Assembly (NCBI RefSeq): GCF_009906315.1
Contig: NZ_JAAALL010000013.1
Location: forward strand, 1-32,457
Source of the DNA: Kineococcus vitellinus
GTDB taxonomy: Bacteria; Actinomycetota; Actinomycetes; Actinomycetales; Kineococcaceae
Direction: 5' to 3'
Length of the DNA: 32,457 nucleotides
This document shows, piece by piece, positions 7,388-29,665 of this stretch. Every line of letters starts with the position of its first letter. The stretch's first letter is position 1. Under the pieces are notes generated by a model, which saw only the letters and a list, made by a program, of their open reading frames with translations, was not told where the DNA came from and ran no database searches. Both the position numbers and the translations under genes were made by a program.

Positions 7388-7415
7388 CGACATCACGGTC
7401 ATGGCGAAGAGCGGA
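7388..7415 (+). repeat. co-oriented intergenic repeat, locus 1 (short variant)
   Basis: CACGGTCATGGCG, the second-module form of the family, with core CGGTCAT at 7396-7402. First copy in the window; it marks the left edge of the repeat-bearing region. Confidence 0.6.
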
Positions 7416-7474
7416 TGGTCATTGACGAGCCGATCACCCTCGCTGCTTCCTGCAGCAGTCTTGGCGTACAGCCC

Positions 7475-7506
7475 GAACACGGTGGACGACGAACACGGTG
7501 GACGAC
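7475..7506. repeat. 16-bp tandem duplication
   Basis: GAACACGGTGGACGAC occurs twice without a gap (7475-7490, 7491-7506), just upstream of the GTG chosen for the next gene. No function is evident. Confidence 0.9.
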
Positions 7507-7534
7507 GTGCGGGCGCACCGCACATGATCGACCC

Positions 7535-8890
7535 GTGCGGTTCCTACGCCCCGGCTGGCTGATCGAGCTCGACTGCGGCCTGTGGGCGGTGGATGCCACC
7601 CAACCGCTCGCCGCCGTCCTCGACCCCCACGACGGGCAGGTACGGCACGTGGTCACCTGGCCCGCCGTGCCCCCGCCACAGGTGCACGCACGCCCGGTCG
7701 TGCTCGGCGACGGCACCTCGCTGTGGGTGCAGCCGCACCCCGGTGGACCCGTCGTGCGCATCGGCCTCGACGGCGTCGCCGCCGCCGGGTGGGTCGGCGG
7801 CCCCAGCCACCCCCTCGCACGCCAGCACCTGGCCGCGTGCGGCCCGGGCGCCGCCTGGTGCGCCACAGCCGCGCCGGAGGCGGAGTACGTGCGCCGCGGG
7901 GAGCAGCCGCGCACCTTCCTCGGTTACGGGCAGCTGCAACGGGTGGACGCCGAGGGCCGGGTGCTCACCGTCGCGATGGACCGCGGCGTGCAGGCCCTGC
8001 GCGCCAGCCCCGAGGGGCTGCTGGTGGCCGCCGTCGGAGACGGTCACGGGCTGCGCCGCTGGGACGAGACGCAGGACCGGGTCAGCCGCGACACCCGCTG
8101 GTACCTGCTGCCCTGGAAGCTGCCCTGGAACCAGGAGCCACCGCAGGCCCTGACCGAGGACCATGCGCTGCCGCGGACGTTCCAGCCCCCGCCAGCTGAT
8201 GACCCCTCGTCCCTGGTCTCCCAGGACGTGCCCGGCCACGGGCCCATCGCGCGCCGGGGAGAGCTGGAGTGGTTCGCCGAGCCCAGCCAGCAGGCGCCCA
8301 GCGGCGGGCGGGCGTGGACGCGTCCGCTGGTGAGCGCACGCGATGCCTCAGGGCAGGTGCTGGCCTCCTGGGACCTCGCTGACGGCTGGATCGAGACCAT
8401 CAGCGCCTCCGGCTCCCGTCTGCTACTCGCCGTGGCGCGCCGCCCTCGCACCTGGACCTCATCAGCGGCGCAGCACCCGGTGGACGTCATCGCCCTGGAC
8501 GCCGCTGACGGCTCGCTCACCGAGCTGCTGCCCGCAGGCTCCGTGGACATCAGCGAGCACTGCCGGCCGCTGCGGCCGCGGCCGCTGGAGGCGGACTCCT
8601 ACGCCCGGCAGGTGCTGCAGGAGGTGCAGGATCGCGCCGGCCGGCTGCAGCAGGTGGGCGCCCGGGACCTCGAGCACCGCTTGGAGGGGTCCTGGCCGCA
8701 CACGGTGCTGGAGCTGACCATGTCGGTGCTCGAACGATCTGGGGTGCGGCTGCGGCGGCGGGTGCCGCTCTTCGATGAGCTGGGCCGCATCCTGGGCCCG
8801 CAGTACCCCGACGCTCACCTGGTGGATCAGTACCAGGCGCACATGTTGCCGCCTCTCAGCCAGGCGCGTGACGGCTTCCTCGACGTCTGA
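7535..8890 (+). CDS. uncharacterised 451-residue protein, possible beta-propeller
   Basis: I do not recognise a named family. The protein is soluble, without signal peptide or membrane segment. Its first 270 residues are strand-rich, with recurring short blocks such as SPEGLLVAAVGDGHGLRRWDE that look like propeller blades of WD40/SMP-30 type. The C-terminal 120 residues are helical and charged. GTG at 7535 is chosen because sequence character becomes protein-like there (VRFLRPGWLIELDCGLW); the frame upstream is built from repeat and duplication sequence. The gene sits alone between repeat loci 1 and 2. Role unknown. Confidence 0.7.
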   Translation: MRFLRPGWLIELDCGLWAVDATQPLAAVLDPHDGQVRHVVTWPAVPPPQVHARPVVLGDGTSLWVQPHPGGPVVRIGLDGVAAAGWVGGPSHPLARQHLAACGPGAAWCATAAPEAEYVRRGEQPRTFLGYGQLQRVDAEGRVLTVAMDRGVQALRASPEGLLVAAVGDGHGLRRWDETQDRVSRDTRWYLLPWKLPWNQEPPQALTEDHALPRTFQPPPADDPSSLVSQDVPGHGPIARRGELEWFAEPSQQAPSGGRAWTRPLVSARDASGQVLASWDLADGWIETISASGSRLLLAVARRPRTWTSSAAQHPVDVIALDAADGSLTELLPAGSVDISEHCRPLRPRPLEADSYARQVLQEVQDRAGRLQQVGARDLEHRLEGSWPHTVLELTMSVLERSGVRLRRRVPLFDELGRILGPQYPDAHLVDQYQAHMLPPLSQARDGFLDV

Positions 8891-8937
8891 GCACCGCCGC
8901 TGCTGACGGCATCTGAGCGATCAACGCCGCGCCGCCG

Positions 8938-8966
8938 TGTGCACGGTCATCCCGCGGCCCGGGCGA
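8938..8966 (+). repeat. co-oriented intergenic repeat, locus 2
   Basis: GCACGGTCATCCCGCGGCCC, core at 8944-8950, between the converging 7535-8890 gene and vapC. Confidence 0.8.
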
Positions 8967-9028
8967 CCATGAGGCTGGCAGGAACGGCCGCCGAAGACGC
9001 AGCTCGTCCTTGCTGCCGATCGGTTCCC

Positions 9029-9442
9029 CTACGTGGTCGTTCCACGCGGAAGCACCCACCGCTGCCGGACGCCCGCGCACTCCTCGATCAGCTCGAAGTC
9101 TCGGTCGTAGTGCAGGACGGCGGCCCCTTCTACGGCGGCATGGGCTGCGACCAGGATGTCCACCGGGCCGGGTCCGCGGTGCTGCCCCTTGGCGACGAGC
9201 CCGCCCTGGATGGTCCGAGCTTGGACATCCACCTCCTCTGACCCGTGGAGCGTACGCATCGCAGCGGCCAGGTACTGCCACTGCCGCACGTGATCGACCT
9301 CATTGCGGGTAGAGACCCCGACCTCGAGCAAGGTCGGCACGCAGATGACCAGCTCGTGATCAGCCCGCAACGCCTCCACGGCATCCCGGACGCGCGGCTT
9401 GCTGAAGCGCTGGATGACGCTGTTGTCGAGGACGAACCTCAC
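9029..9442 (-). CDS. vapC: VapC-type PIN-domain ribonuclease toxin
   Basis: A 137-residue PIN domain with the four acidic metal ligands in the usual places: Asp6 (FVLDNSV), Glu40 (PTLLEVG), Asp95 (PVDILVAA), and Asp113/Asp115 (HYDRDFE). PIN toxins cleave RNA, often tRNA or rRNA, when their antitoxin is lost. The start overlaps the end of vapB by ATGA (9439-9442), giving translational coupling. All catalytic residues are present, so the toxin looks intact. Confidence 0.93.
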   Translation of the reverse strand: MRFVLDNSVIQRFSKPRVRDAVEALRADHELVICVPTLLEVGVSTRNEVDHVRQWQYLAAAMRTLHGSEEVDVQARTIQGGLVAKGQHRGPGPVDILVAAHAAVEGAAVLHYDRDFELIEECAGVRQRWVLPRGTTT

Positions 9443-9723
9443 GCAGCGCCCTCGCTGCCGCTACTGCCCGGCCTTTGCGCGTACTCGTCCACCTTGGCCT
9501 GCTCGTGGGCGAGGTGTTCACGCTCGGCTTCGAGGTACGCGGTGTTGGAGAAGCCGCCGGCATCGACGTAGTCCCACAGGTGACTCCACGCCTGGTCCTT
9601 CTCGGCCTTCTCGACGGCAGCGCGCAGGGCGGCTTCGACGGTGTCCTTCTTCTGCTTGGTGCCCAGCGCGCTAGCTGCGCGACCCAGCAGATCGTCATCG
9701 ATGTCGATGTGCGTGTAGGTCAT
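9439..9723 (-). CDS. vapB: VapB-type antitoxin
   Basis: A 94-residue antitoxin. Residues 1-45 (THIDIDDDLLGRAASALGTK, then TVEAALRAAV) match the DNA-binding N-terminus of the VapB/DUF2191-type antitoxins. The acidic, Gly/Ser-rich tail is the likely toxin-wrapping part. GGGGAG before the ATG is a strong ribosome site. It is first in the vapBC operon, and two palindromic half-sites upstream indicate autorepression by the complex. The promoter faces the recombinase promoter region. Confidence 0.9.
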   Translation of the reverse strand: MTYTHIDIDDDLLGRAASALGTKQKKDTVEAALRAAVEKAEKDQAWSHLWDYVDAGGFSNTAYLEAEREHLAHEQAKVDEYAQRPGSSGSEGAA

Positions 9724-9739
9724 GAAGACTCCCCGGGTC

Positions 9740-9770
9740 GACGTACGTCAATCATAAGCCTGACGTACGT
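9740..9770 (-). promoter_or_regulatory. vapBC promoter with paired operator
   Basis: Self-palindromic GACGTACGTC at 9740-9749 and a second GACGTACGT at 9762-9770 lie 22 bp apart, about two helical turns. Between them, on the minus strand, TATGAT (9756-9751) is a good -10 box 27 bp before the vapB ATG. The operators bracket this box, as expected for conditional autorepression by a VapBC complex. Confidence 0.7.
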
Positions 9771-9873
9771 GAAGGTCGAGGTATCCACCTCCACCCCGGA
9801 CCTGCGGCACGCACCTGAGCCTGCAGTGCGACCGGCCTGGCGCGATCAGGGCGCAGCGGAAGCACGCTCCTCT

Positions 9874-10800
9874 ATGAGCCTCACCCCTGACCATCTACCC
9901 ATCGCCCTCGGTGACGGCACCTGGCGCACCGACCCCCTGCGCCTGGCCATCGCCGCCTACCTGGCTCGCTACCGCGGCGAGACCCGGCGCCACGCCGAGT
10001 CCGACCTGCGCGCCTACCTCACCTGGTGCCGACTGCGCGGCCTCAACCCGCTGGCTGCCCGGCGCCCGCACATCGAGCTGTACGTGCGGTGGATGCAGGA
10101 GAACCAGCGCTTCGCCGCCTCCACCGTCTCCCGGCGCATGTCGGTCGTCGCCGGCTTCTACCGGACCTGCGTCATCGACGCCGTCCTCGAGCACTCACCG
10201 GCCGACTACGTCCGCCGCCCCAACGTGCCACCGGAGTCACCCACCCTGGGCCTGTCGCACCTGCAGCTCGAAGCGATGCTCGCCACCTCGCGGGACTCGG
10301 CCAACCCGTGCGACTTCGCCCTGGTGTGCCTGCTCGGGCTGCTGGGCCTGCGGATCTTCGAGGCCTGCGCCCTGGACATCACCGACCTCGGCGAGGAGCA
10401 CGGCCACCGCGTCCTGCGGGTGGTCGGCAAAGGTCACAAGGTCGTCCTCGTCCCGCTGGCGCCAGCGGTTGGCCGAGCTGTGGACCGCGCCATCAGCGCC
10501 CGCATCACCGGCCCACTGCTGCTGAACACCCGCGGCGGTCGCCTGGACCGCCACTCCGCCACCCGACGGCTGCGTCACCTCGCCGCCGACGCCCGCATCC
10601 GGCTACCGCGGATGCACCCGCACATGCTGCGCCACACATACGTGACCACCATGCTCGACGCCGGAGTGGACCTCAGAGACGTCCAGATTGCCGCCCGCCA
10701 CGCCGACCCCAGGACGACGATGCGCTACGACCGGGCCCGCACCACGCTGGATCGCCACCCCAACTACATCCTTGCCGCGTACATGGCCTCAGGCACCTGA
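9874..10800 (+). CDS. tyrosine recombinase / integrase (XerC/D-like)
   Basis: A 308-residue site-specific recombinase. An N-terminal SAM-like core-binding domain (about 20-110, YRGETRRHAESDLRAYLTWC) is followed by the catalytic domain with Arg160 (LLGLRIFEA), Lys187/189 (GKGHK), His250 and Arg253 (HPHMLRHTYV), His276 and nucleophile Tyr285 (MRYDR). All catalytic residues are present. The ATG at 9874 begins the recognisable protein. I see no IntI-specific insertion between the central catalytic boxes and no adjacent tRNA or excisionase. It is the only recombinase in the window and lies within the repeat-separated region, so it is a candidate to move modules; that is inference. Confidence 0.9.
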   Translation: MSLTPDHLPIALGDGTWRTDPLRLAIAAYLARYRGETRRHAESDLRAYLTWCRLRGLNPLAARRPHIELYVRWMQENQRFAASTVSRRMSVVAGFYRTCVIDAVLEHSPADYVRRPNVPPESPTLGLSHLQLEAMLATSRDSANPCDFALVCLLGLLGLRIFEACALDITDLGEEHGHRVLRVVGKGHKVVLVPLAPAVGRAVDRAISARITGPLLLNTRGGRLDRHSATRRLRHLAADARIRLPRMHPHMLRHTYVTTMLDAGVDLRDVQIAARHADPRTTMRYDRARTTLDRHPNYILAAYMASGT

Positions 10801-10987
10801 CGGGGCCACCCCGACTTCACTCATCTGCCGATGACCAGATGGTCGAGGTAGGGCGCGATCACCTGTCGAGCGCCGACCAGCAGGTGCACGCGGTCGCCCT
10901 CTGCTCCCAGGGCGGGGGACGTGTGACGACCGGGTCCACCAACGCCCTAACCTCCTGGACGTCGACCGCGGGGCCCGTCCGAACCGC

Positions 10988-11506
10988 TCAGCGCAACTGC
11001 AGCGAAGCCGGCAACGGCGTCGTGGCAGTCACATCGCTCAAGCTGCCGTCGGGCTCCACCCGCACCGCGCCCCAGTACCCATCGCTGGTGCATCGAGGAC
11101 CGTTCACGTCAGAGCTGACCGCCCGCGCGGCCACCGGCACGCTGACCTCACGAACGACCGGACCTCCCTCGTCGTGCAGGCGCAGGTGCGCCGTCGGCGC
11201 GGCGCTCATGTCCAGGTCGAAGATGAAGGCACTGCTCATGTCTGCACCGCCAGTGATCGCCGGGTCAGCGGTGAACAAGCGCACGTAGGTGCCTTGGCAG
11301 GCGTCATCGGCGCAGTAATCGGCAACCAGCGGACTGTCGGGGGGCTGGGGCGGGTCGTTCAAGGCCCTCATGTCGAAGGTCAACCCGAACGGCGGGCCGA
11401 TCGCCGTGCACGCCTGAGCCGTCATGCCGCTCGAACACGCGGTGAGCAGCATCAGGCAGCTGTCTGCGGCGAAGGGTCCTAGGCGCACGCCCCTGGGACG
11501 CCGCAC
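10988..11506 (-). CDS. putative lipoprotein, uncharacterised
   Basis: A 172-residue protein beginning with two arginines, a short hydrophobic stretch and the lipobox LLTAC at about residue 20-24, so it should be exported and lipidated. The hydrophobic part is short and contains charged residues (RLGPFAADSCLMLLTAC), weaker than a typical signal. The mature part has several cysteines (CSSG, QACTA, YCADDACQG, RCTSDG), suggesting disulphides outside the membrane. No family recognised. The 10801-10987 gap to the recombinase shows no repeat copy. Confidence 0.65.
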   Translation of the reverse strand: MRRPRGVRLGPFAADSCLMLLTACSSGMTAQACTAIGPPFGLTFDMRALNDPPQPPDSPLVADYCADDACQGTYVRLFTADPAITGGADMSSAFIFDLDMSAAPTAHLRLHDEGGPVVREVSVPVAARAVSSDVNGPRCTSDGYWGAVRVEPDGSLSDVTATTPLPASLQLR

Positions 11507-11586
11507 ACCGGCTCAGCGTTCCACACCCTTTCAGCCCACTGAGGACCCCGATGGGAGGACGCCGCGACGTGATGCCCGCGTACTCC

Positions 11587-11660
11587 GCGGCATGACCGCG
11601 ACGTCGCGGTCATCCCGCCCTACGGGCGACGTCACGGTCATGGCGCAGACATCGCGCTCC
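11587..11660 (+). repeat. co-oriented intergenic repeat, locus 3 (double, 28-nt spacing) with perfect palindrome
   Basis: Cores CGGTCAT at 11607-11613 and 11635-11641, 28 nt apart; the first is followed by CCCGCCC, the second by GGCG. Bases 11592-11613 form a perfect 22-bp palindrome (ATGACCGCGAC and its complement) that extends, after one mismatch, by four more pairs. CGCCC/GGGCG (11617-11629) makes a small second hairpin. Confidence 0.85.
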
Positions 11661-11692
11661 TGCTGAAGAGTGAGCAGCCGTAGGCCACGACG

Positions 11693-12049
11693 TCAGTCCA
11701 CGTGCCTCGCGGCCGCAGCGACTACCAGACGGGTGTCGGGCTCACCGGCACGGTGTCGCCCGTACATGCGAACGACGGCCTCACCACTGCTGGCGCTGCG
11801 CTGGAAGTCCTCATCAGCCAGCACCTTGGCCAACAGCGACGGTGAGAGCTCGACGCACTTGCCGAAGGTGAGCAGGTAGGCCGGCCGTCCCCGCTCGGCG
11901 TGAGCCACCGCCTCCTGGGCCGTCAGCTCACGCCCCCACGTCCGCCGGACACCCTCCACGACCAGGAACTGCGGAGGGCACCCGAGCAGCACCTGAGCCA
12001 CCAAGTCCGGTCGGTCAGGCATATCGCGCAGCACAGCCGACAAGCTCAC
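11693..12049 (-). CDS. uncharacterised 118-residue protein
   Basis: No family recognised. A soluble protein with an aliphatic core (LVAQVLLGCPPQFLVVEGVRR) and a hydrophilic helical C-terminus ending ARHVD. GTG at 12049 is chosen since protein-like sequence begins there and upstream codons in the frame overlap the end of the broken gene at 12117. It may have formed a two-gene unit with that gene. It is bounded by repeat loci 3 and 4. Confidence 0.6.
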   Translation of the reverse strand: MSLSAVLRDMPDRPDLVAQVLLGCPPQFLVVEGVRRTWGRELTAQEAVAHAERGRPAYLLTFGKCVELSPSLLAKVLADEDFQRSASSGEAVVRMYGRHRAGEPDTRLVVAAAARHVD

Positions 12050-12116
12050 AGCCCCAGCTTCCCGGACGCGCCTGGCCGACGCACGATCCCGCCCCCGATC
12101 ATGCTGCTCTGGACGC

Positions 12117-12448
12117 TCAGCACTGCCCAGTGAGCACCAGCACCTCCCGGTCGTCATCGCTGACCCAACGCCCGCCCATCCAGACGACCTCGCCACCCGG
12201 CTGCGGCGCCCGGGTGGTCACCGCTGGCCGCACGACCTGCCACTGCTGCACCGCGTCAGGGCCGTCGAGGTAGTCCAGCTACTGGCCGCCGTACCAGTAC
12301 AGGACTAGGGGCACGCCGGCTGCAATGAGGGCGTCCGCGTCTCGACGCTCGATACGGCTGGAGCCGCAGGTGAACCGCCGACCGGCCGGGGTGGTCAGCT
12401 GCCCCGACTCCACAGCGTCCACTGCTCATCGACCAGACTCACTCGCAC
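12117..12448 (-). pseudogene. broken gene of unknown function (one-base frameshift plus in-frame TAG)
   Basis: This minus-strand gene is hidden because no frame is open throughout. From GTG at 12448 the reading VRVSLVDEQWTLW is followed, after an apparent one-base loss near 12405, by SGQLTTPAGRRFTCG and ALIAAGVPLVLYWYGGQ. A TAG in place of a probable CAG/other sense codon comes next, then LDYLDGPDAVQQW and GGRWVSDDDREVLVLTG to the TGA at 12117. Both halves have strong coding character in the same frame around the TAG. Not matched to a family. Two independent lesions make real inactivation more likely than here a single error. Confidence 0.6.
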
Positions 12449-12464
12449 CGACTCAGCATGGCTG

Positions 12465-12495
12465 ACGACCGCGCGGTCATGGCGCGTTGAGGGCG
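12465..12495 (+). repeat. co-oriented intergenic repeat, locus 4 (short variant)
   Basis: GCGCGGTCATGGCGCGTTGA, core at 12474-12480. It separates the broken gene (minus) from the Nudix gene (plus), so it sits in a divergent gap. Confidence 0.7.
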
Positions 12496-12533
12496 CGAAT
12501 GCGGTCCGACCCGGCGCCGTTGCGAGCGTCTGC

Positions 12534-12971
12534 TTGGCTTCACCGGTGCACACCGTTGCCGTCGGCATCCTCATCCGGGACCACCGCGTGCTCCTGGCCC
12601 TGCGCAGTGCAGACCGCCGCGCTCACTCCGCCCGGTGGGCCCTGCCCGGAGGCCACGTCGAGCCCGGCGAGTCCGAGCCCGAAGCCCTGCGCCGAGAGCT
12701 ACACGAGGAGCTCGGCATCAACGTCCTCGACTGCGACGACGAACCCGCCTCCCGGCTGCACCTCACCCCCGGCGCACCCGACACCGAGCTGCACCTGAGC
12801 ACCTGGCGGGTGCGGACCTGGAGCGGGCAGCCCAGCAACACCCGCCCCGACGAAAACGACCGTCTCACCTGGTTCAGCGCCGACGAGCTCGACCAGCTGC
12901 TCTGGGCGCACCCTGAGCACCAGCAGATGCTGAGCGACATGCTCAGCCAACTCACTCCTGGGGCGACCTGA
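12534..12971 (+). CDS. Nudix hydrolase (MutT-like)
   Basis: A 145-residue Nudix protein with a complete Nudix box from Gly40 to Gly61 (GHVEPGESEPE, then RRELHEELGI): metal-binding Glu58/Glu59 and Arg54-Glu55 are all present. Such enzymes hydrolyse nucleoside diphosphate derivatives; the N-terminal RSADRRAHSARWALPGG resembles MutT/NUDT15-type pyrophosphatases. The start is TTG 12534 or GTG 12546; neither has a strong ribosome site. It lies alone between repeat loci 4 and 5. Confidence 0.92.
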   Translation: MASPVHTVAVGILIRDHRVLLALRSADRRAHSARWALPGGHVEPGESEPEALRRELHEELGINVLDCDDEPASRLHLTPGAPDTELHLSTWRVRTWSGQPSNTRPDENDRLTWFSADELDQLLWAHPEHQQMLSDMLSQLTPGAT

Positions 12972-12981
12972 CGAGACCAAC

Positions 12982-13012
12982 GCGACGTCACGGTCATCCC
13001 GCGTCCTGCGTG
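12982..13012 (+). repeat. co-oriented intergenic repeat, locus 5
   Basis: GACGTCACGGTCATCCCGCG, core at 12991-12997, 20 bp after the Nudix stop, in a convergent gap. Confidence 0.88.
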
Positions 13013-13056
13013 ATCGGGTCGCTGCCGCGACTTACGCGCACAGCACCATCCGCCGA

Positions 13057-13872: not shown

Positions 13873-13950
13873 CCGGAGGGGGCCAACCCCCGTGCCGACC
13901 CCGGTCGGAGCAGTGGGCGCCCGCACCCAGAGCACTCCGATCGAGAGCGT

Positions 13951-13982
13951 CGACGACTTCGCGGTCATCCCGCGGTGTGCGC
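13951..13982 (+). repeat. co-oriented intergenic repeat, locus 6
   Basis: GACTTCGCGGTCATCCCGCG followed by GTGTGCGCGG, core at 13962-13968, a near-consensus copy between two minus-strand genes. Confidence 0.9.
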
Positions 13983-14111
13983 GGGCGCCAGTTGGCCGGC
14001 GATCGCGCGGACACGGCGATGTCTGGAGACGAGCGGCACGCGTCGACCGCCCGTGTCGTCGAGACGCCGGGCAGGCCGGTGACGCGGCTTGCCCAGCGTC
14101 ACCGCCTGGAG

Positions 14112-15635: not shown

Positions 15636-15657
15636 CCGTCCAGCCGTCGTCGATGCG

Positions 15658-15722
15658 TCCGGTCATCTCGCCGTGCGCGCTATCGCCGGCGCCCCACGAC
15701 GTCACGGTCTTGCCGAATTGCG
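15658..15722 (+). repeat. co-oriented intergenic repeat, locus 7 (bipartite, 45-nt spacing)
   Basis: CCGGTCATCTCGCCGTGCGC (core 15660) and GACGTCACGGTCTTGCCG (core 15705), exactly 45 nt apart, as in loci 10 and 14. The first module is somewhat diverged. The 15636-15761 gap holds nothing else. Confidence 0.75.
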
Positions 15723-15761
15723 GGTGGTTCCCGTTCCACACCGTGGTGCCTGGAGAGAGCG

Positions 15762-16299: not shown

Positions 16300-16402
16300 C
16301 AACGCTCGCGCATCCCGCGCTGCACGCGACGTCACGGTCATCCCGCGGTGCGGGCAGCGCACGGTCATCGCGCGTTGCGGGCGGCGTCACGGTCAGAACG
16401 CC
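16300..16402 (+). repeat. co-oriented repeat, locus 8: tandem run of four units, period 27-28
   Basis: Successive units start at CATCCCGCG 16311, CGGTCATCCCGCGG 16335, CGGTCATCGCGCG 16362 and CGGTCAGAACG 16390; the intervals between equivalent bases are 28, 27 and 28 nt. Unit consensus: CGGTCATCCCGCGTTGCGGG plus about 8 nt ending in CGTCA. CCCGC-GGT-GCGGG can form a hairpin. The only clear multi-unit tandem in the window. Confidence 0.9.
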
Positions 16403-17041: not shown

Positions 17042-17088
17042 TGCGACGTCGCGGTCATCCCGCCTTCCGGGCGGGATCACGGCGGGGC
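17042..17088 (+). repeat. co-oriented repeat, locus 9, hairpin form
   Basis: Core CGGTCAT at 17052-17058. ATCCCGCC (17057-17064) pairs with GGCGGGAT (17070-17077) across a TTCCG loop, an 8-bp stem; the right arm continues CACGG, 28 nt after the first core, so the whole locus is an imperfect palindrome. It lies in a divergent gap. Confidence 0.88.
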
Positions 17089-17845: not shown

Positions 17846-17921
17846 CGAGCATCCGGTCATCCCGCGTTGTGCGCAGTCCTGAGCTACCGGCGGCGTCGCG
17901 ATCATGGCGAGATCAGAGCGT
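17846..17921 (+). repeat. co-oriented repeat, locus 10 (bipartite, 45-nt spacing)
   Basis: CCGGTCATCCCGCGTTGTGC (core 17854-17860, exact consensus) and GGCGTCGCGATCATGGCGAG (core 17899-17905), 45 nt apart. It fills the gap between two + strand genes. Confidence 0.9.
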
Positions 17922-18447: not shown

Positions 18448-18448
18448 C

Positions 18449-18480
18449 CACTTCATGGTCATCCCGCAGATGGCGTGACG
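18449..18480 (+). repeat. co-oriented intergenic repeat, locus 11
   Basis: CTTCATGGTCATCCCGCAGA, core at 18456-18462, immediately after the stop of the 17956 gene. Confidence 0.8.
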
Positions 18481-19044: not shown

Positions 19045-19052
19045 CCCCGCGG

Positions 19053-19084
19053 CATCGACCGGTCATCCCGCGTTGTGCGCGCGT
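19053..19084 (+). repeat. co-oriented intergenic repeat, locus 12
   Basis: ACCGGTCATCCCGCGTTGTG then CGCGCG, core at 19060-19066, full consensus, in a convergent gap. Confidence 0.92.
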
Positions 19085-20371: not shown

Positions 20372-20400
20372 GCGACGCACAGTCATCCCGCTGTCGTGGA
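20372..20400 (+). repeat. co-oriented intergenic repeat, locus 13
   Basis: GACGCACAGTCATCCCGCTG, core CAGTCAT at 20380-20386 with one change from consensus, between two minus-strand genes. Confidence 0.75.
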
Positions 20401-20451
20401 CGTTGACCGGCGCTGTGAGCACCGGTCATGTGCTCGTTTTCACGGACCTGA

Positions 20452-20940: not shown

Positions 20941-21292
20941 CGGTCCATGCTGCCGGATGGCGGGGACCAGCCAGCCACCGCATCCCACTCGGGTTCACAG
21001 CAGGGAGCGACCCTCGGGGGACTTCACGGTCATCCCGCGTTGTGCGCGCTCTCAAGCGGCTGACGACGTCGCGGTCTTGGCGATGGCCGCAAGATCATCC
21101 TTCCCCCATGACGACTACTGCCACGGTCCAGACCAGGCTCAAACGCCGGTCACCCCGTTAGGCTTGATCCATGGAGTGCTTCCCCGCCACGCGCACCCGC
21201 TGAGGAATGACCTCCCAGCGCGGGGCGGTCAGCAGCCGCCCACCACGAAGGTGGTCGGCCCCCCTTCGAGCCCTTGAGCAGGAAGCAACCCC
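20941..21292. other. 352-bp gap with repeat locus 14 and a hairpin-rich leader
   Basis: It contains repeat locus 14. It then has a short open frame at 21171-21203 (ATG, 10 residues), a GGCGG/CCGCC hairpin (about 21224-21240) and ACCAC-GAAG-GTGGT (21242-21255), before AGGAAG (21280-21285), the ribosome site of the P-loop gene. The hairpins may be part of the gene's 5' leader; no known riboswitch recognised. Confidence 0.5.
21018..21092 (+). repeat. co-oriented repeat, locus 14 (bipartite, 45-nt spacing; best consensus)
   Basis: ACTTCACGGTCATCCCGCGT followed by TGTGCGCGC (core 21027-21033), then GACGACGTCGCGGTCTTGGC (core 21072-21078), 45 nt apart. It is the cleanest two-module copy and a good query for a genome search. 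Confidence 0.93.
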
Positions 21293-22028: not shown

Positions 22029-22075
22029 CGTCGTCATGGTCATGCCGCGGAGCACGAACGCTCGATGATGGCGAT
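22029..22075 (+). repeat. co-oriented intergenic repeat, locus 15 (diverged, double)
   Basis: CGTCATGGTCATGCCGCGGA (core 22037-22043), then CGATGATGGCGATGG about 26 nt further. A diverged copy in a convergent gap. Confidence 0.65.
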
Positions 22076-23170: not shown

Positions 23171-23205
23171 ACGACTTCACGGTCAGCCCGCGTTGTGCGC
23201 GGCGG
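23171..23205 (+). repeat. co-oriented intergenic repeat, locus 16
   Basis: ACTTCACGGTCAGCCCGCGT followed by TGTGCGCGG, core CGGTCAG at 23180-23186, one change from consensus. Confidence 0.9.
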
Positions 23206-23226
23206 GTTCTGCCCGATGAGCAGGAG

Positions 23227-23883: not shown

Positions 23884-23918
23884 GGATCGAGCATGGCCAG
23901 GCAGCGGGTCCCATGCCA

Positions 23919-23950
23919 CCGACTTCACGGTCATCCCGCCGGTCGCGCGT
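23919..23950 (+). repeat. co-oriented intergenic repeat, locus 17
   Basis: GACTTCACGGTCATCCCGCC then GGTCGCGCG, core at 23928-23934. It ends directly before the stop codon of the zinc-ribbon gene (23952) and would supply a false in-frame ATG to the gene downstream. Confidence 0.9.
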
Positions 23951-23951
23951 A

Positions 23952-24161: not shown

Positions 24162-24185
24162 GTCGTGAGCATGGCAGGAGCGGCG

Positions 24186-24247
24186 ACGACTTCACGGTCA
24201 TCCCGCAGTGCGCGAGCGCACGGTCATCCCGCCGTCAGTGCGCGGCG
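24186..24247 (+). repeat. co-oriented repeat, locus 18 (double, 26-nt spacing)
   Basis: GACTTCACGGTCATCCCGCA (core 24195) and GCACGGTCATCCCGCCGTCA (core 24221), 26 nt apart. The second unit contains the stop codon of the minus-strand acetyltransferase gene (24235-24237), so repeat and gene overlap by about 13 bp. Confidence 0.9.
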
Positions 24248-24744
24248 ACCGGGACGAAGGCCATCACCTCCCTCTCGCGCCCCTCGTCTAGCCCGCGCTC
24301 ACCCGTCGGCACGAAGCCGGCCCGCCGCCAGGCCCGCACCGCCCGCACGTTGGCCACCGCCGGATCGACCGTCAGAGGCCGCCAGCGGCGAGCGGTCAGC
24401 TCCTCAGCCAGCGCCCGGGCAACCACCGGCCCCAGCCCTCGGCCCTGCGCGCCGGCGGCCAGGAACATGTCCAGCCCACAGCGAGCACCCTCCTGCCAGG
24501 CCTGGATGAGCCCGACCGGTGCTTCCGCCGTCTCGATGATGTACACCACCACCCCGGGCAGGCGTACCCCGGTGTACTTCGCGACCACCTGCTCCAGCGC
24601 CACCGGTGCACCGCCCCACCAGCGGTGCACCTCCTCCTGCGCCAGCCAGGCGGTGATGCTCTCCGCATCGGCGGGGCTGGACAGGCGCAGGCGCAGGCCC
24701 TGCGAGGGCTCGCTCGTCAGCTCCGATGGGTAGCTGCGCGCCAT
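24235..24744 (-). CDS. GNAT acetyltransferase, AAC(6')-like (Acetyltransf_8 type)
   Basis: A 169-residue acetyltransferase with the layout of the AAC(6')-Ib/IIc-type group: LRLSSPADAESITAWLAQEEVHRWWGG at the N-terminus, then GLIQAWQEG, GLDMFLAAGAQGRGLGPVVAR (acetyl-CoA loop QGRGLG) and VDPAVANVRAVRAWRRAGFVPTGER. Relatives acetylate aminoglycosides, other amines or siderophore precursors; resistance cannot be concluded from sequence alone. Its last codons and stop fall within repeat locus 18. Between loci 18 and 19. Confidence 0.88.
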   Translation of the reverse strand: MARSYPSELTSEPSQGLRLRLSSPADAESITAWLAQEEVHRWWGGAPVALEQVVAKYTGVRLPGVVVYIIETAEAPVGLIQAWQEGARCGLDMFLAAGAQGRGLGPVVARALAEELTARRWRPLTVDPAVANVRAVRAWRRAGFVPTGERGLDEGREREVMAFVPVAAH

Positions 24745-24789
24745 CCTCCGACGCTAGGCCAGGATGCACTCCGCCAGCTCGATGGTGCG

Positions 24790-24816
24790 GCGCGTCCAGT
24801 CATCCCGCGGTGCGTG
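24790..24816 (+). repeat. co-oriented intergenic repeat, locus 19
   Basis: GCGTCCAGTCATCCCGCGGT then GCGTGTG, core CAGTCAT at 24797-24803, same change as in locus 13. Confidence 0.78.
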
Positions 24817-24846
24817 TGCTTCTGCCGCATCGGCCGGCGGTGGCTC

Positions 24847-25536
24847 TCAGTGCGGGTGCGGTAGGGGACGTAGCCGCGTCGAGGCCCAGTCCTTGACCAA
24901 GGCGCTCACCGCCACGACCGGCGGCAGGTGCGCCCACACCTCCACGTTGAACCCCGGCGACGGTGTCGTCACAGACCAGGCCAGGCGGGTCAAAGCGGCG
25001 CGGCGACGTTGCACCCCGATGAGGGCGCTCCCCAGGGGGACGACGACGGAGTCGCCACTGGCCTCACTGCTGCGGACCTGCCAGGTCGGGCGCGGTACTT
25101 GAGGCCAGGGTGCGCCGTAGCCGGTCAGCAGGGACACGGTGACCATCCCGCGCTCAGCGGCGGCGGCGTAGGAGCCTGGCGCAGCCCACGCGATGTCGGC
25201 GGGCACGTACAGGACACTGAAGGTCACGTTGGTTCCCGGCGGGATGGCCCGACGCGGAGGGCGTTCCTCGAAGGGGTGCACGACGAAGTGGTCGATCAGT
25301 CCGTGGTCGGCGGTGAGGCTGGGCAAGGTGGGGGGCTCGAAGCCCAACCAGTCCCGCAAGCTGGCCTGGGAGGTGGGTTGCCAGGCTTCGGCGAGGGTGT
25401 CCGGCGGGCGGTTGTAGCCGCGGCGGCTGCGTCCGCGCATGGGCAGCAGGGAGTCCAGGATGCGCACCGCTGGCGGTGGCAGGGGCAAGCCGGTGAGCGG
25501 CTCGTTCCAGCCTTCGGCGTCGGTCGGCTCCGTCAT
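24847..25536 (-). CDS. uncharacterised 229-residue protein
   Basis: No family recognised. The first 80 residues are proline-rich and hydrophilic; the rest alternates strands and short helices (VTFSVLYVPADIAWAAPGSYAAAAERGMVTVSLLTGYG, then SVVVPLGSALIGVQRRRAALTRLAWSV and FNVEVWAHLPP). No signal peptide or membrane segment. The LYVPADIAW turn is faintly similar to LAYVPYSRL in the 23227 gene product, too little to claim kinship. Between repeat loci 19 and 20. Confidence 0.65.
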   Translation of the reverse strand: MTEPTDAEGWNEPLTGLPLPPPAVRILDSLLPMRGRSRRGYNRPPDTLAEAWQPTSQASLRDWLGFEPPTLPSLTADHGLIDHFVVHPFEERPPRRAIPPGTNVTFSVLYVPADIAWAAPGSYAAAAERGMVTVSLLTGYGAPWPQVPRPTWQVRSSEASGDSVVVPLGSALIGVQRRRAALTRLAWSVTTPSPGFNVEVWAHLPPVVAVSALVKDWASTRLRPLPHPH

Positions 25537-25607
25537 GGCTTCGACGATGCCAGCGCCAGGGCGCTGTTCGCTCCCTCCCGGCCAGAGGAGCCGGCCCAGG
25601 TGTCCGA

Positions 25608-25636
25608 CGATCTACCGGTCATCCCGCGATGAGGGT
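25608..25636 (+). repeat. co-oriented intergenic repeat, locus 20
   Basis: CTACCGGTCATCCCGCGATG, core at 25616-25622, in front of the mazF 3' end. Confidence 0.82.
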
Positions 25637-25653
25637 GGCTCCCGTCACCAGCC

Positions 25654-26001
25654 TCACAGGGCCAGGTGCAGCCGCAAGGCGTTGTCGAGGGCGTCCAACG
25701 CCTCGAGCGGCAACCGCCCCAACGCCGGTCCCAGCCGGTCGACCGAGACGGCGCGGACCTGCTCGGCCTGGGCCTTGGAGTCGACGTGCAGTCCGGTGTC
25801 CTGGGCGGTGAGCAGGACCTGGAAGGGGAACACCCTGGCGGTGCCGCTGGTCACCGGGACCACGGTGACCACGCCCCGACCCAGGCGCTCAGCGACCGCG
25901 TTGGCCCGGTCGTTGCTGACCACGACCGCGGGCCGGCGCTTGTTCGCCTCACTGCCCTGGACGGGGTCGACGTCGACGAGGCGGACTTCCCCGCGGCGCA
26001 T
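25654..26001 (-). CDS. mazF: MazF/PemK-type endoribonuclease toxin
   Basis: A 115-residue MazF toxin. MRRGEVRLVDVDPVQGSEANKRRPAVVVSNDRAN holds the typical beta1-beta2 hairpin and the RRPAVVVSN motif with its catalytic Arg; VTVVPVTS carries the Ser/Thr and LTAQDTGLHVDSKAQAEQVRAVSVDRL the rest of the fold. MazF cleaves mRNA or tRNA at short motifs. It starts within the stop of the antitoxin gene (TGATG overlap at 25999-26003), so it is translationally coupled. The toxin looks intact while its antitoxin frame is broken, which is noteworthy. Confidence 0.92.
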   Translation of the reverse strand: MRRGEVRLVDVDPVQGSEANKRRPAVVVSNDRANAVAERLGRGVVTVVPVTSGTARVFPFQVLLTAQDTGLHVDSKAQAEQVRAVSVDRLGPALGRLPLEALDALDNALRLHLAL

Positions 26002-26218
26002 CAGCGCAGTCCGTCAGCCGCGACGCCCTCCCACACCTCACGCTCCCCGGAGTCGTCCCAGTCCTTCCAGGCGGCGGCGTAGTCCTGCTCCAGCTGCTGG
26101 TGGGTCAGTGCCCGGATGGCCCGCTGACAGCCGCGGACCGGGACGGCAGACCGGCCTGGCGGACGTGCTCGTCGAGGGCGGCGACGTCGGCTTCGGAAAG
26201 GCTGATGCTGAGCTTCAC
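26001..26218 (-). pseudogene. MazE-like ribbon-helix-helix antitoxin with one-base frameshift
   Basis: From GTG 26218 one frame encodes a ribbon-helix-helix N-terminus (VKLSISLSEADVAALDEHVRQ, LPSRSAAV). The expected continuation, QRAIRALTHQQLEQDYAAAW to WEGVAADGLR and the stop at 26001, lies in the adjacent frame. One base seems missing at about 26124-26128. If real, the DNA-binding half would end in a short foreign tail and the toxin-binding half would be lost, hard to reconcile with an active mazF. A sequence error, a rescuing frameshift or a silent toxin would explain it. No classic slippery site is visible. Confidence 0.75.
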
Positions 26219-26250
26219 GAGTCGATGCCACTCAGGTAGCACCGCCGATG

Positions 26251-26281
26251 CCACCTTCCGGTCATCCCGCAGGCCGGAGTG
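26251..26281 (+). repeat. co-oriented intergenic repeat, locus 21
   Basis: CTTCCGGTCATCCCGCAGGC, core at 26259-26265, in the divergent gap between mazE and the membrane-protein gene. Confidence 0.82.
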
Positions 26282-26360
26282 CCGGGAGCTGGCCAGATCG
26301 AGCTCGCGATCTTCCTGAGGAGTTCCACGAGCACCTGCACCCACCCCCTGTGGTCGGTGC

Positions 26361-26815
26361 ATGTTCACGAGCATCGTCGACCACCCCTGGGTGCTGGTCC
26401 CGCTCATCGTGCTCGTGGTGGTCGTCGTGGCGGCGGTGCTCGCCATCCGCGGCGTGCTGAACCGCCGCCAGCAGCGACCGCCCTCCCCGCCGTCCTCCCC
26501 GTCGTCTTTCGGCGATCCGCGGGGACTGAGGCCCCATCCCCGTGGTGAGAGCAGCCGGGCGCAGCACGCTGCCCGCCCCACCACCTCGCATCCCCTTCGA
26601 GGCGCTGACCGACCCGACCAGGACCCGAATCGGCCCTGGTTGCTCCTGCACCCGACGAGCAGCGACCCCAGGGCCAGCCACCCCGCCTGGACCCTGTTGC
26701 TGCAGAACCCCTCGCCGGTCCGGCGGAGGTTCGCAGGCTGCGGCGCCGCATCGACCAGCTCGTCGACGGGAACCTGCGAGACCGCTTCGACGACTGGAGC
26801 CGGCCGCACGGTCAT
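26361..26815 (+). pseudogene. single-pass membrane protein gene with apparent frameshift
   Basis: ATG 26361 opens a protein with a strong membrane helix (WVLVPLIVLVVVVVAAVLAI) followed by a basic stop-transfer segment and a Pro/Ser-rich stretch. About 26605-26680 coding character passes to another frame: ESALVAPAPDEQRP, then RRLRRRIDQLVDGNLRDRFDDW up to 26808, where repeat locus 22 begins. Loss of one base explains the switch. The second frame has no stop before or in the repeat, so its original end may have been replaced when the repeat arrived. Function unknown. Confidence 0.5.
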
Positions 26816-26832
26816 CCCGCGTCGTGCGTGGT
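26801..26832 (+). repeat. co-oriented intergenic repeat, locus 22
   Basis: CCGCACGGTCATCCCGCGTC then GTGCGTGG, core at 26809-26815, directly joined to the coding end of the broken membrane-protein gene. Confidence 0.88.
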
Positions 26833-27007
26833 CTCGAGCAGCCGAGGACGACCTCCCGTGCGAATCCTGTTGGTTGCCCTGGTGCCCGGCGGCTGGCACA
26901 GACCAGCGCCCACGCTGAACCGACCTGATCTCCCACACGACGGTGCCGGTGATGCGACGATCACCTCAGCGTGCCCACTACGGCACACACCGCCTGAGAG
27001 GCCGCCG

Positions 27008-27442
27008 ATGACCAAGGACGAGAACCGCCGCCGCTGGGCCGGCACCGCCCGCACCGCAACCGCCGGCGCGCTGGTCGGAGCCATCGGCGGAGCGGTCGCC
27101 GGCACCACTTCACTGCTGGGCGACGGAGGGTTCTCCACCGGAGCCGCCGTGGTCTTCGGCGGCGGGTTCGGCGCCGTGTTCGGTGCCCTCTTCGGTGTGG
27201 CGACCGGCGCTGTCGGAGGCTGCTTGGCGGTGCACGTGGTCCGTCGACGCATCCGGCTCGCCCGGACGCTGCTGGCGGTGTGCAGCGGTGTCCTGATCGC
27301 CCTGGCAACGGCGTGGAGCCTGGGGCCCGAGGTTGATCAGCTCGGGTGGATCGTCCTGGCCGGAGCGATCGCCTCGACCGCCGCGTGGCTTTGCGCTCCG
27401 TGGTGCCTGCGTCCTCTCCGTGCGGCCGACTCGCCTGCCTGA
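27008..27442 (+). CDS. small multi-pass membrane protein, uncharacterised
   Basis: A 144-residue protein with four likely membrane segments: about 15-35 (TATAGALVGAIGGAVAGTT), 42-68 (Gly/Ala/Phe-rich GAAVVFGGGFGAVFGALFGV), 82-102 (LLAVCSGVLIALATAWSL) and 110-130 (LGWIVLAGAIASTAAWLC). The Gly-rich second helix suggests close helix packing. GAGAGG before ATG 27008 supports the start, although the frame is open further upstream through repeat-derived sequence. Role unknown. Between repeat loci 22 and 23. Confidence 0.75.
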   Translation: MTKDENRRRWAGTARTATAGALVGAIGGAVAGTTSLLGDGGFSTGAAVVFGGGFGAVFGALFGVATGAVGGCLAVHVVRRRIRLARTLLAVCSGVLIALATAWSLGPEVDQLGWIVLAGAIASTAAWLCAPWCLRPLRAADSPA

Positions 27443-27474
27443 ACCGCTGATCGCCGCGCAACACCATGGTGCGA

Positions 27475-27508
27475 GCGATTCCACGGCTGTCCCGCGTTGC
27501 GCGCTGTC
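27475..27508 (+). repeat. co-oriented intergenic repeat, locus 23 (diverged)
   Basis: TCCACGGCTGTCCCGCGTTG then CGCGCTG, core CGGCTGT at 27484-27490. The core is changed but the CCCGCGTTG part and position are preserved. Confidence 0.7.
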
Positions 27509-27648
27509 GTGGGCGGCCGCGACACCTGCTCAGCTCCGCGACTGTCACCGAGGTCCTGAGGCATCGCACCAGCCCGGTCCGGGTTCTCCGGGTTCCGCGA
27601 GCGGATCGGGTCGCCTCCGCGCGGTGCTCCTGCGGTCCTTCGGTCCCG

Positions 27649-28482
27649 TCAACGACGGTCGGCGGCCGGCGGCGCGCATGAAGCCTGCGCGAGCAGGAAG
27701 GAGTCGATCGCCGCCCAGGTGGCCTCGGGGTTCTCGAGGTGCGGCAGGTGCCCGGCGGCGGGGACCTCGACGAACTGCGCGCCGGGCACCGCCCGCGCGA
27801 CGGCCCGCCCGTAGGCGGGGGTGACGATGCGGTCGCTGGCGCCCCAGGCCACGAGGGTGGGCACGGCCACCGCGCCGAGCCGCTCCAGCAGCGTCGGGTC
27901 GCTCATGCTCCTCCCCGCCACGACGGCCATCGTGGCCGCGTTCCCCTGCTGCAGCGCGCGCTGCTCGTCGCTGAGGCCGGCCGGGTCGAGGTGGCCGCGC
28001 TCGGGGTCGTGCCAGGCGGCTTCGGCGAGCCCGCGGGCGTCGAGGGCGAAGAAGTCGGCGATCGGCTCGCCGTCGACGACCGCACCGACGCCGTCGACGA
28101 CGACCACGGCCCCGACCAGCCCGGCGCAGCGTTCGTCCGCGCCCGCTCGCACGGCGGCCTGCACGGCCACTTCCAGGGCGATCCAGCCGCCGATCGACGA
28201 CCCGACCAGCACGACGTCCCGCTCCCCGTGCTCGAGCAGGCGGGTGAGGTAGGCGGTGGCGAGGTCGGCGATCGAGCCGATGGAACCGGGGCGCTCGGTG
28301 CCGTCCCAGCCGGGGTGGGTCGGGGCGCAGGCGTGCAGGGTGCTCGCGAGGTGGGCCACGACCGGGGCGACGGTGCGGAGCCCGCCGCCGCCGTGCAGGA
28401 CGAGGGCGGTGCGTGCGTCCGGGTCGCCGGCCTGGAGGACGGGCAGGTCCGTGGGAAGCGTGGGGGGCGGGGAGGCGGGCAT
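27649..28482 (-). CDS. alpha/beta hydrolase
   Basis: A 277-residue alpha/beta-hydrolase with HGGGGLRTV near residue 30 as the oxyanion region, Ser in the nucleophile elbow VGSSIGGW, Asp in WGASDRIV and His in AAGHLPHLENP: a complete Ser-Asp-His triad of an esterase/lyase type. AGGAG stands before ATG 28482. It diverges from a MarR gene across direct repeats and is the likely target of that regulator. The 27649-28998 pair has fewer features of the accessory modules and resembles the 14-15.6 kb hydrolase/MarR pair in plan, though the proteins are not close. Confidence 0.9.
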   Translation of the reverse strand: MPASPPPTLPTDLPVLQAGDPDARTALVLHGGGGLRTVAPVVAHLASTLHACAPTHPGWDGTERPGSIGSIADLATAYLTRLLEHGERDVVLVGSSIGGWIALEVAVQAAVRAGADERCAGLVGAVVVVDGVGAVVDGEPIADFFALDARGLAEAAWHDPERGHLDPAGLSDEQRALQQGNAATMAVVAGRSMSDPTLLERLGAVAVPTLVAWGASDRIVTPAYGRAVARAVPGAQFVEVPAAGHLPHLENPEATWAAIDSFLLAQASCAPPAADRR

Positions 28483-28497
28483 GGTGCTCCTGATCGA

Positions 28498-28526
28498 GTC
28501 AACGTGTTGATATACGGGTGTTGATA
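28498..28526. promoter_or_regulatory. probable MarR operator: paired GTGTTGATA direct repeats
   Basis: GTGTTGATA at 28504-28512 and 28518-28526, 14 bp apart. With the preceding TCAAC (28499-28503) the first also forms the short palindrome TCAAC-GT-GTTGA. It is the AT-richest stretch in this part of the window and lies in the divergent hydrolase/marR gap. Confidence 0.7.
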
Positions 28527-28536
28527 CCGTAGCACC

Positions 28537-28998
28537 GTGACGACCGACCTCGAAGCCCTCGGGCAGGCGATCAAGCGTGCGCAGCACCGCAACCACCGCA
28601 CGATGGACGCCGCGCTGCGCGAGGTCGGGATCAGCCTCGTGCAGTGGGACGCCCTGCGCGCCGTCGCCCGACTGCCGGGAGCCTCCGGGCACGAGCTGGC
28701 CCTCGCCACGTTCCAGAGCGACCAGGCGTTCGGCACCCTGGCGACCCGGCTCGTCGAGCGCGGGCTCATCACCCGCTCCGCGGGCCGCGGGCGGCGCCTC
28801 GAGCACGCCCTCACCGAGGCGGGGCGGGCGGCGCTCGCGGACGGCCGGCGGTTGTCGGTCGGCGTCCTGCAGGACCTCTTCGCGCCGCTGGGCGAGGAGC
28901 AGCGCAACGACCTGCTCCGGCTGCTCCAGGACCTCCTCGGCGGCGACGCTCGCCGGTCGCCGGTCGAGGACGCCCAGGAGCCGCCCTGCAGATCATGA
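28537..28998 (+). CDS. MarR family transcriptional regulator
   Basis: A 153-residue winged-helix protein: SLVQWDALRAVARLPGASGHELALATFQSDQAFGTLATRLVERGLI is the helix-turn-helix region, and TRSAGRGRRLEHALTEAGRAAL the wing and following helix. GTG start at 28537. It diverges from the alpha/beta hydrolase gene with clear direct repeats between, so it probably represses that gene and itself. Ligand unknown. Confidence 0.9.
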   Translation: MTTDLEALGQAIKRAQHRNHRTMDAALREVGISLVQWDALRAVARLPGASGHELALATFQSDQAFGTLATRLVERGLITRSAGRGRRLEHALTEAGRAALADGRRLSVGVLQDLFAPLGEEQRNDLLRLLQDLLGGDARRSPVEDAQEPPCRS

Positions 28999-29008
28999 GG
29001 GGTGCCTG

Positions 29009-29042
29009 ACACGTCCGCCCACGCCACACGTCCGCCCACGCC
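29009..29042. repeat. 17-bp tandem duplication
   Basis: ACACGTCCGCCCACGCC occurs twice without a gap (29009-29025, 29026-29042), between the marR stop and the TPR-like gene. This gap has no copy of the co-oriented repeat family. Confidence 0.9.
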
Positions 29043-29095
29043 GATGGCCGCTGCGCCGCGGGTGAGATGTCGGTGGCCTTCGACAGGCTGTGTCC

Positions 29096-29590
29096 ATGAG
29101 TGACGAGACACCGAACGTGGCTGCCCCTGACGACGTGATGACGCGCATCGGCCGCGGCATCGAGTTGAACCAGCGCGGCGAGAAGGCGCGAGCCCACGCG
29201 CTGTTCACGGACCTGTGGTCTCAGATCGGCCCCGACGGCGACGCCGTGCACCGCTGCGCACTGGCGCACTCCATGGCCGACACCTGCGATGACCCGCACG
29301 AGGAGCTGCGGTGGGACCTCGAGGCCCTGCGGGCAGCAGACTCGGTCACCGATGAGCACGCCTCCGCTGCGGGCATGGCCGGGCCGGTGGCCGCGTTCTA
29401 CCCCTCTCTCCACCTCAACCTCGGCGAGGTCCACCGCAAGCTCGGCGACCTCGACGCCGCTCGACGCCACCTCGACCTGGGGGGTCGAGCCGTGAGCACG
29501 CTTCCAGACGACGACTACGGACAGATGATCACCGCGGGCCTCGACGCTCTCCGTCAGCGACTCGACTCCGGGGAGCAGCCCACTTCGTGA
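29096..29590 (+). CDS. TPR-like protein, 164 residues
   Basis: A helical protein with tetratricopeptide character: IGRGIELNQRGEKARAHALFTDLWSQIG is one repeat-like helix pair, and PSLHLNLGEVHRKLGDLDAARRHLDLGGRA is a second, closer to the TPR consensus (LGEVHRKLGDLDAARRHL). Such proteins mediate protein contact. Relatives of this length occur widely as stand-alone genes in actinomycetes. ATG 29096 or the GTG two codons before. Last gene on the + strand before repeat locus 24. Confidence 0.8.
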   Translation: MSDETPNVAAPDDVMTRIGRGIELNQRGEKARAHALFTDLWSQIGPDGDAVHRCALAHSMADTCDDPHEELRWDLEALRAADSVTDEHASAAGMAGPVAAFYPSLHLNLGEVHRKLGDLDAARRHLDLGGRAVSTLPDDDYGQMITAGLDALRQRLDSGEQPTS

Positions 29591-29601
29591 CTGCCGCCCT
29601 C

Positions 29602-29665
29602 GGCGTTGCGCGCTGCCGGCGCACGTCGCGGCCATCCCGCGATCCGGGCGCGATCACGGCTGTCC
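29602..29665 (+). repeat. co-oriented repeat, locus 24 (double, 28-nt spacing), right-most copy
   Basis: GCACGTCGCGGCCATCCCGC (core CGGCCAT 29629-29635) and GATCACGGCTGTCC (core 29657), 28 nt apart; a CGGCGTTGCGCGCTG fragment precedes. The second unit overlaps the stop of the next minus-strand gene (29654-29656). Confidence 0.75.

Follow-up and report, generated by a model that had tools for sequence, protein, structure and literature searches.

Chromosomal integrons such as the Vibrio superintegron consist of long arrays of mostly one-gene cassettes with co-oriented sites, a tyrosine recombinase nearby, toxin-antitoxin and unknown genes among the passengers, and the cassette as the unit of exchange; some arrays lack a recombinase. 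The same traits are found in arrays of Kineococcus, which we describe here from a 32,457-nucleotide stretch of the soil actinobacterium Kineococcus vitellinus (contig NZ_JAAALL010000013.1, positions 1 to 32,457 of the forward strand; hereafter the window) that carries a family of short, co-oriented repeats and, among them, the gene for a Xer-like tyrosine recombinase at 9874..10800. Unlike in chromosomal integrons, however, the Kineococcus recombinase is Xer-like and not IntI, the site is about 30 bp long with two arms and lacks enriched attC boxes or attC-like folding, the cassette genes face both ways, and sites flank the recombinase on both sides. The system works like a chromosomal integron but has neither of the features that define one, IntI and attC.

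The Xer (dif/pdif) modules of Acinetobacter resemble these arrays in their short two-arm sites, small spacer and toxin-antitoxin genes. A passage of one account gives such modules as 11 + 6 + 11 bp in C/D and D/C arrangement (PMC12907356), whereas the Kineococcus sites have an 8-bp spacer, run in one direction and come with an associated array recombinase. That recombinase is closest to the simple recombinases XerC, XerD and XerA, which give its best family scores and its best solved relatives, but it falls below every Xer cut-off, occurs in only 17 of 394 genomes of its class at 1e-60 and is tied to arrays. As for integrons in the host group, which is credited with almost none, the IntegronFinder 2.0 paper states in one passage that no complete integron was found in Actinobacteria (PMC9024848), and a passage of a review counts Actinobacteriota among the integron-bearing phyla (PMC8618304). 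We found no account of a system like the present one in the open-access full-text literature, a scope outside which most subscription papers and preprints fall.

The first-pass annotation of the window had listed 24 intergenic repeat cores on one strand and had mentioned neither the recombinase nor any cassette logic. We consider it highly probable that these repeats serve as recombination sites in an integron-like array of gene cassettes, with the Xer-like recombinase as the most likely enzyme. The sites are co-oriented, the cassette is the unit, the switch in similarity falls where the core ends, and the sites are associated with one recombinase family.

Co-oriented sites in Kineococcus

Direct reading placed all 24 cores at their listed positions on the plus strand, and a 20-mer search allowing up to three mismatches returned 11 matches in the window, all on the plus strand, against 0.01 expected. 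A profile trained on the 24 cores, which recovers those 24 by construction, found no site in the window outside 7396-29629 at its threshold. The G+C content is 70.5% inside this region and 75.6% and 76.0% on its two sides, and the proposed confinement to an accessory region holds in the window. Even-step samples along the chromosomes of two other complete genomes (G010 and G005) held 8 sites in 790 kb. Rfam returned no match in the window at gathering score, and an RNA element was rejected on this result.

The source genome of the window comprises 698 contigs. The window itself is contig C44, and runs of the repeat also occur on contigs C16, C244, C673, C125, C28, C322, C270 and C466, each in a single direction except for one weak opposite match on C322 and one on C466. 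A sequence-only profile of 61 sites from this source genome matched all 11 Kineococcus genomes, with between 21 and 159 matches per genome at E 0.1, and the genus-wide scan again showed co-oriented arrays. The retrieved Kineococcus array regions held 722 sites above threshold, including 217 in G010 and 153 in G005; the reversed, not complemented, control gave none (2.5 Mb, both strands of all retrieved regions). By strand, 566 sites lay on the majority strand of their region and 4 on the other, with two regions that each hold two opposite arrays left out. Opposite arrays adjoin in G010, where 62 minus-strand sites are followed by 71 plus-strand sites.

This orientation is independent of the genes. 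Of 450 cassettes, 183 have a best-scoring open reading frame (ORF) that shares the direction of the site, 175 have one in the opposite direction, and 92 have no ORF above threshold. It does not follow replication as a rule either. In G010, G005 and G001 the dnaA gene is located roughly halfway along the main contig, and arrays point toward it by majority strand in 8 of 8 retrieved regions of G005 and 3 of 3 of G001; in the complete genome G010, by our own tally, only 3 of 8 clusters do. A replication-strand rule therefore fits G005 and G001 and fails in G010, and the GC skew of chromosome samples was too noisy for mapping replichores. The orientation rule is one direction per array, not per replichore. 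The first-pass annotation had argued for an element acting on DNA, tied to accessory DNA and fixed in direction whatever the direction of its genes, all of which these data support; of the two mechanisms it offered, recombination is favored, whereas replication-strand bias finds no support as a rule.

Cassettes between the sites

Inter-site intervals of 200-4000 bp have a median length of 769 bp (n = 490), and 41 multi-member cassette families account for 93 of 511 intervals. An all-against-all comparison yielded 52 whole-cassette pairs in two contexts, of which 15 were in one genome and 37 spanned two genomes. At the left sites of these shared cassettes (n = 52), similarity was close to background ahead of the conserved block and present after the core; at the right sites (n = 49, three having been excluded because their outer flanks also matched), similarity extended to position 11 and dropped from position 12. 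Similarity between homologous cassettes thus switches at the end of CGGTCATCCCGC. At the variable core positions 7, 8 and 11, agreement was 0.81, 0.88 and 0.88 at left sites and 1.0, 1.0 and 0.94 at right sites, and the lower left-site agreement places the switch at or after those positions. All 46 homologous cassette pairs with both neighbors known differ on both sides, with none sharing a neighbor, which is predicted by exchange of one cassette at a time and not by random recombination between short repeats. Judged from these comparisons of sequence, the DNA between sites moves as a unit.

Site architecture

Conservation across 718 sites is limited to positions -8 to +23. The best center of symmetry is +8.5, which gives an 8-bp spacer, with other centers close in score; the site is then about 26-30 bp long, with imperfect inverted arms CKCACGGTC and GTGCGCGCG around the spacer ATCCCGCG. 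Tandem sites favor spacings of 26-29, 35 and 43-47 bp. The attC R-box, whose consensus we take to be GTTRRRY/RYYYAAC, is not enriched: among 465 sites, GTTRRRY occurred in 2 and RYYYAAC in 23, compared with 6 and 32, respectively, in control windows. Folding of either strand exceeded that of shuffled sequences by about 0.3-0.7 standard deviations (150 sampled of 465 isolated sites). With boxes not enriched and folding barely above that of shuffles, an identity of the sites with attC was rejected.

The array recombinase

The gene at 9874..10800 (plus strand, with the start chosen from conservation) encodes a 308-amino-acid Xer-like tyrosine recombinase, the likely cassette integrase. Alignment with XerD assigns the catalytic set R160, K186, H250/R253, H276 and Y285. 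Among 46 sequences (the window protein and 45 of 62 clean relatives, six sequences with an in-frame stop having been left out), R160, K186, R253 and H276 are invariant and H250 and Y285 nearly so. The tail LDRHPNYILAAYMASGT, which follows the presumed catalytic tyrosine (window positions 10741-10800), is strongly conserved in the same alignment.

Model scores were 118 bits for XerC, 115 for XerD and 94 for XerA, all below the curated cut-offs, and the NCBIfam integron-integrase model TIGR02249 gave a partial match of 52 bits against a cut-off of 265. Among solved relatives found by sequence, XerD (1a0p) ranked first and XerA (5hxy) third, with no IntI at 1e-5. Alignment with the XerD sequence shows no extra block in the window recombinase that would correspond to the IntI-specific insertion in the catalytic domain, which one passage describes as not fully conserved (PMC8138268). 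The AlphaFold2 model was poor, worst at the C-terminal end (mean predicted local distance difference test score 69.5, predicted template modeling [TM] score 0.46), and no conclusion was built on it; Foldseek with this model placed XerA and XerD at the top with low TM scores and IntI (2a3v) lower.

Whole or partial copies of more than 80% identity occur in 5 of the 11 Kineococcus genomes (G000, G002, G008, G009 and G010), with a remnant in G001, and all 12 Kineococcus copies and remnants of this family have nearby sites on their own strand. Similarity between copies ends at the gene, and the flanks differ. Two partial copies in G008 begin just after a site and have unlike left flanks, so the gene can itself be a cassette. 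Directly after the stop codon in the window lies a variant site of TGCCGA type (10812..10836, plus strand), found by eye and unscored by the Kineococcus profile, which is a candidate for either a primary (attI-like) site or the 3' end of the recombinase's own cassette. Judged by eye, such a site follows the stop in every Kineococcus copy whose 3' end can be read (10 of 10); in 3 of these it is scored, weakly, by the Kineococcus profile.

Control by the SOS response was also considered. With the LexA box presumed to be GAACN4GTTC, a match with at most one mismatch lay upstream in 9 of 73 loci against 7.7% of random windows, with no exact match, and this candidate was rejected.

Sites and recombinases beyond the genus

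Relatives outside Kineococcus were gathered by the recombinase alone, the best 80 of 185 being kept, from Micromonospora, Actinoplanes, Nocardioides, Terrabacter, Knoellia, Cellulomonas, Kribbella and other genera. The Pimelobacter simplex locus L137 has its own array, with consensus CGCCCGCACATGCCGCGATCCGCGCG. In 75 other non-Kineococcus loci, a profile built from it placed 235 sites on the same strand as the recombinase and 34 on the opposite strand, with 14 in reversed controls; plus-strand sites exceeded minus-strand sites in 64 loci, compared with 2 for the reverse (P = 4e-38, with the loci not fully independent as some share a genome). Covariance-model searches showed the same strand lean. 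A refined profile from this analysis had been trained on plus-strand matches and was excluded as evidence. In the pooled consensus, the arms CGYMCKSWY and RTSCGSGCG enclose the 8-bp MTGCCGCG, a layout as in Kineococcus. In 31 of the 75 loci, a TGCCGA-type motif lies no more than about 60 nucleotides from the stop codon of the recombinase, compared with 5% of random windows.

The L137 array (4.6-20.4 kb) is the second dense one and has a site sequence of its own. In it, downstream stretches recur at 6760/18071, 12394/19571 and 14655/16756, which suggests duplicated cassettes. In another genome (G038:C6:51822-52425), about 18 tandem actinobacterial sites lie on the minus strand with 34-bp spacing, like empty mini-cassettes.

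Across the 394 genomes of the class, the Kineococcus site model matched 43, of which 42 had a single weak match (17 candidates scored per genome). The pooled site model gave a median of 9 matches in the nine genomes whose recombinase has at least 63% identity and a median of 2 in 24 genomes without the recombinase. This comparison is not fully independent, since some genomes probably supplied training sites, and the 24 genomes are a non-random set (many had one chance match to the Kineococcus site model) in which the outlier G168 was kept.

Features of the window

All sites in the window lie on the plus strand and are given here with their cores in parentheses. Core reading and the profile support the left array end, a site of GGCGA type at 7388..7417 (7396), and those at 8936..8965 (8944), 11599..11628 (11607, within a palindrome), 12466..12495 (12474), 12983..13012 (12991), 13954..13983 (13962), 15652..15681 (15660), 16327..16356 (16335), 17044..17073 (17052), 18448..18477 (18456), 20372..20401 (20380, a weak site with the lowest score of the 24), 22029..22058 (22037), 23920..23949 (23928), 24789..24818 (24797), 26251..26280 (26259), 27476..27505 (27484) and 29621..29650 (29629), the last being the right array end. 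Core reading and a 20-mer match support 17846..17875 (17854), 19052..19081 (19060), 21019..21048 (21027), 23172..23201 (23180), 24187..24216 (24195), 25608..25637 (25616) and 26801..26830 (26809).

The 24-core profile also detected partial second copies 26-45 bp downstream of six listed cores. Tandem copies lie at 11627..11656 (11635), 16354..16383 (16362, also a 20-mer match) and 24213..24242 (24221), and copies 45 bp on lie at 15697..15726 (15705), 17891..17920 (17899) and 21064..21093 (21072), of which the last two are weak and low-scoring. The single minus-strand match, at 11598, is the overlapping half of the palindrome at the 11607 site, and the 61-site profile gave 25 plus-strand matches and 1 minus-strand match. 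Cores 13962, 23928 and 26809 overlap the longest-ORF gene list. Because the best-scoring start lies inside the cassette for the ORFs overlapping the first two, and the interval 26259-26809 has no ORF above threshold, we take all three to be intergenic.

The passengers in the window include the VapBC toxin-antitoxin genes (9029..9723, minus strand) and a PemK/MazF-like toxin with an unassigned partner ORF (25654-26001 and 26001-26231; together 25654..26231, minus strand), two NUDIX proteins, two acetyltransferases, two alpha/beta hydrolases, two MarR regulators, a tautomerase, a DJ-1/PfpI protein, an LD-carboxypeptidase, a DUF6924 protein and several unknowns. A PADLOC search for anti-phage genes gave no match among 10 array proteins.

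Discussion

In the mechanism that we propose, the exchange point lies close to or at the spacer's right end. A cassette then begins with the right part of a site, contains in most cases a single gene, and ends with the left part of the following site, a boundary shown by the comparison of cassettes in different contexts. Each cassette would thereby carry part of a directional site at each end, and excision and reinsertion would always restore sites in one direction, which could account for the fixed orientation while genes face both ways. The association described above points to the array-encoded Xer-like tyrosine recombinase, or a relative, as the most likely enzyme. The substrate is probably double-stranded, because the sites lack attC boxes and attC-like folding, and cassettes may pass through circles. 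Given the mixed gene orientation, passenger genes probably need their own promoters. The recombinase gene can itself sit in a cassette, and arrays without one may be remnants or be served by an enzyme encoded elsewhere.

Several observations weigh against this mechanism. Among the compared cassettes there is no pair of the form A-B-C versus A-C that would record an insertion. Genomes G003-G006 have 21-155 profile matches and no recombinase match at 1e-20, and G168, from the same order as the window, has 35 co-oriented pooled-model matches and no recombinase at 1e-60. Seven genomes with a distant recombinase (45-52% identity) have a median of 1 pooled-model match, with no excess. Site density is equal on the two sides of the recombinase (0.41 and 0.45 per kb), which implies no integron-like polarity, and the motif that follows the stop codon of the recombinase resembles the pan-actinobacterial TGCCGA form more closely than it does the Kineococcus array site. 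Other tyrosine recombinases (25-30% identical), in repeated gene pairs, lie inside the G010 arrays, and the host XerC/XerD is a possible enzyme.

Two of these observations can be located further. The G168 matches are listed mostly at C8:546-563 kb and C4:463-464 kb. The G010 recombinase pairs (e.g., C1:165999-171423, 78166-79733 and 470016-471583), which occur both within arrays and outside them, resemble a transposon that carries two recombinases.

The best surviving alternative, which we nevertheless consider unlikely, is a Xer-module system in which host XerC/XerD would act on dif-like sites and the array recombinase would be a mere passenger. The size of the sites is dif-like, the arrays persist in genomes without the recombinase, and every Kineococcus genome has other tyrosine recombinases. 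The sites nevertheless follow the recombinase: at the 75 recombinase-chosen loci they lie 235 to 34 on its strand, and the motif after the stop in 31 of the 75 is far above chance. Described modules, in the passage cited above (PMC12907356), have 11 + 6 + 11 bp, alternate between C/D and D/C, and are not unidirectional. We give still less credence to a site-specific cassette system run by another enzyme, with the array recombinase as a frequent passenger cassette. The site-bounded partial copies in G008 with their unlike left flanks, the differing flanks of recombinase copies in general, and the several arrays without a recombinase would all fit. Against it, serine recombinases are present in 5 of the 11 Kineococcus genomes at 1e-8 and missing from 6, the one at 237.8 kb in G010 lies where an array thins out at its edge, and serine recombinases were rejected as the enzyme; no other family is so associated, among the two searched (PF00589 and PF00239). 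Dispersed REP/MITE-like repeats, or ordinary homologous recombination among short repeats in place of a site-specific system, would explain why the sequences are short, intergenic, partly palindromic and numerous and why tandem doublets have fixed spacings, but this is barely credible given the single direction per array, exchange at one core position, different neighbors on both sides in 46 of 46 pairs and the tie to one recombinase family, and dispersal by separate insertions in either direction is ruled out by unidirectional arrays and whole-cassette exchange.

Beyond the integron-like array of the window, we think it fairly likely, with less assurance than for the array itself, that these loci represent a second kind of integron. 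This would be an actinobacterial means of cassette capture independent of IntI and attC, with a Xer-like recombinase that can itself travel as a cassette, short two-arm sites that number up to hundreds per Kineococcus genome and take lineage-specific forms in other genera, and no need for single-strand folding or a common promoter. If so, Actinobacteria would have their own cassette-capture system, which attC-based tools should miss and which reaches 217 sites in the retrieved regions of one genome, G010. Cassette arrays could then evolve without IntI and attC, and the role of single-stranded folding in integrons would become testable by comparison. The system would also give access to many small accessory genes, among them toxin-antitoxin pairs, hydrolases, acetyltransferases and unknowns, in a host group that matters for soil and for natural products.

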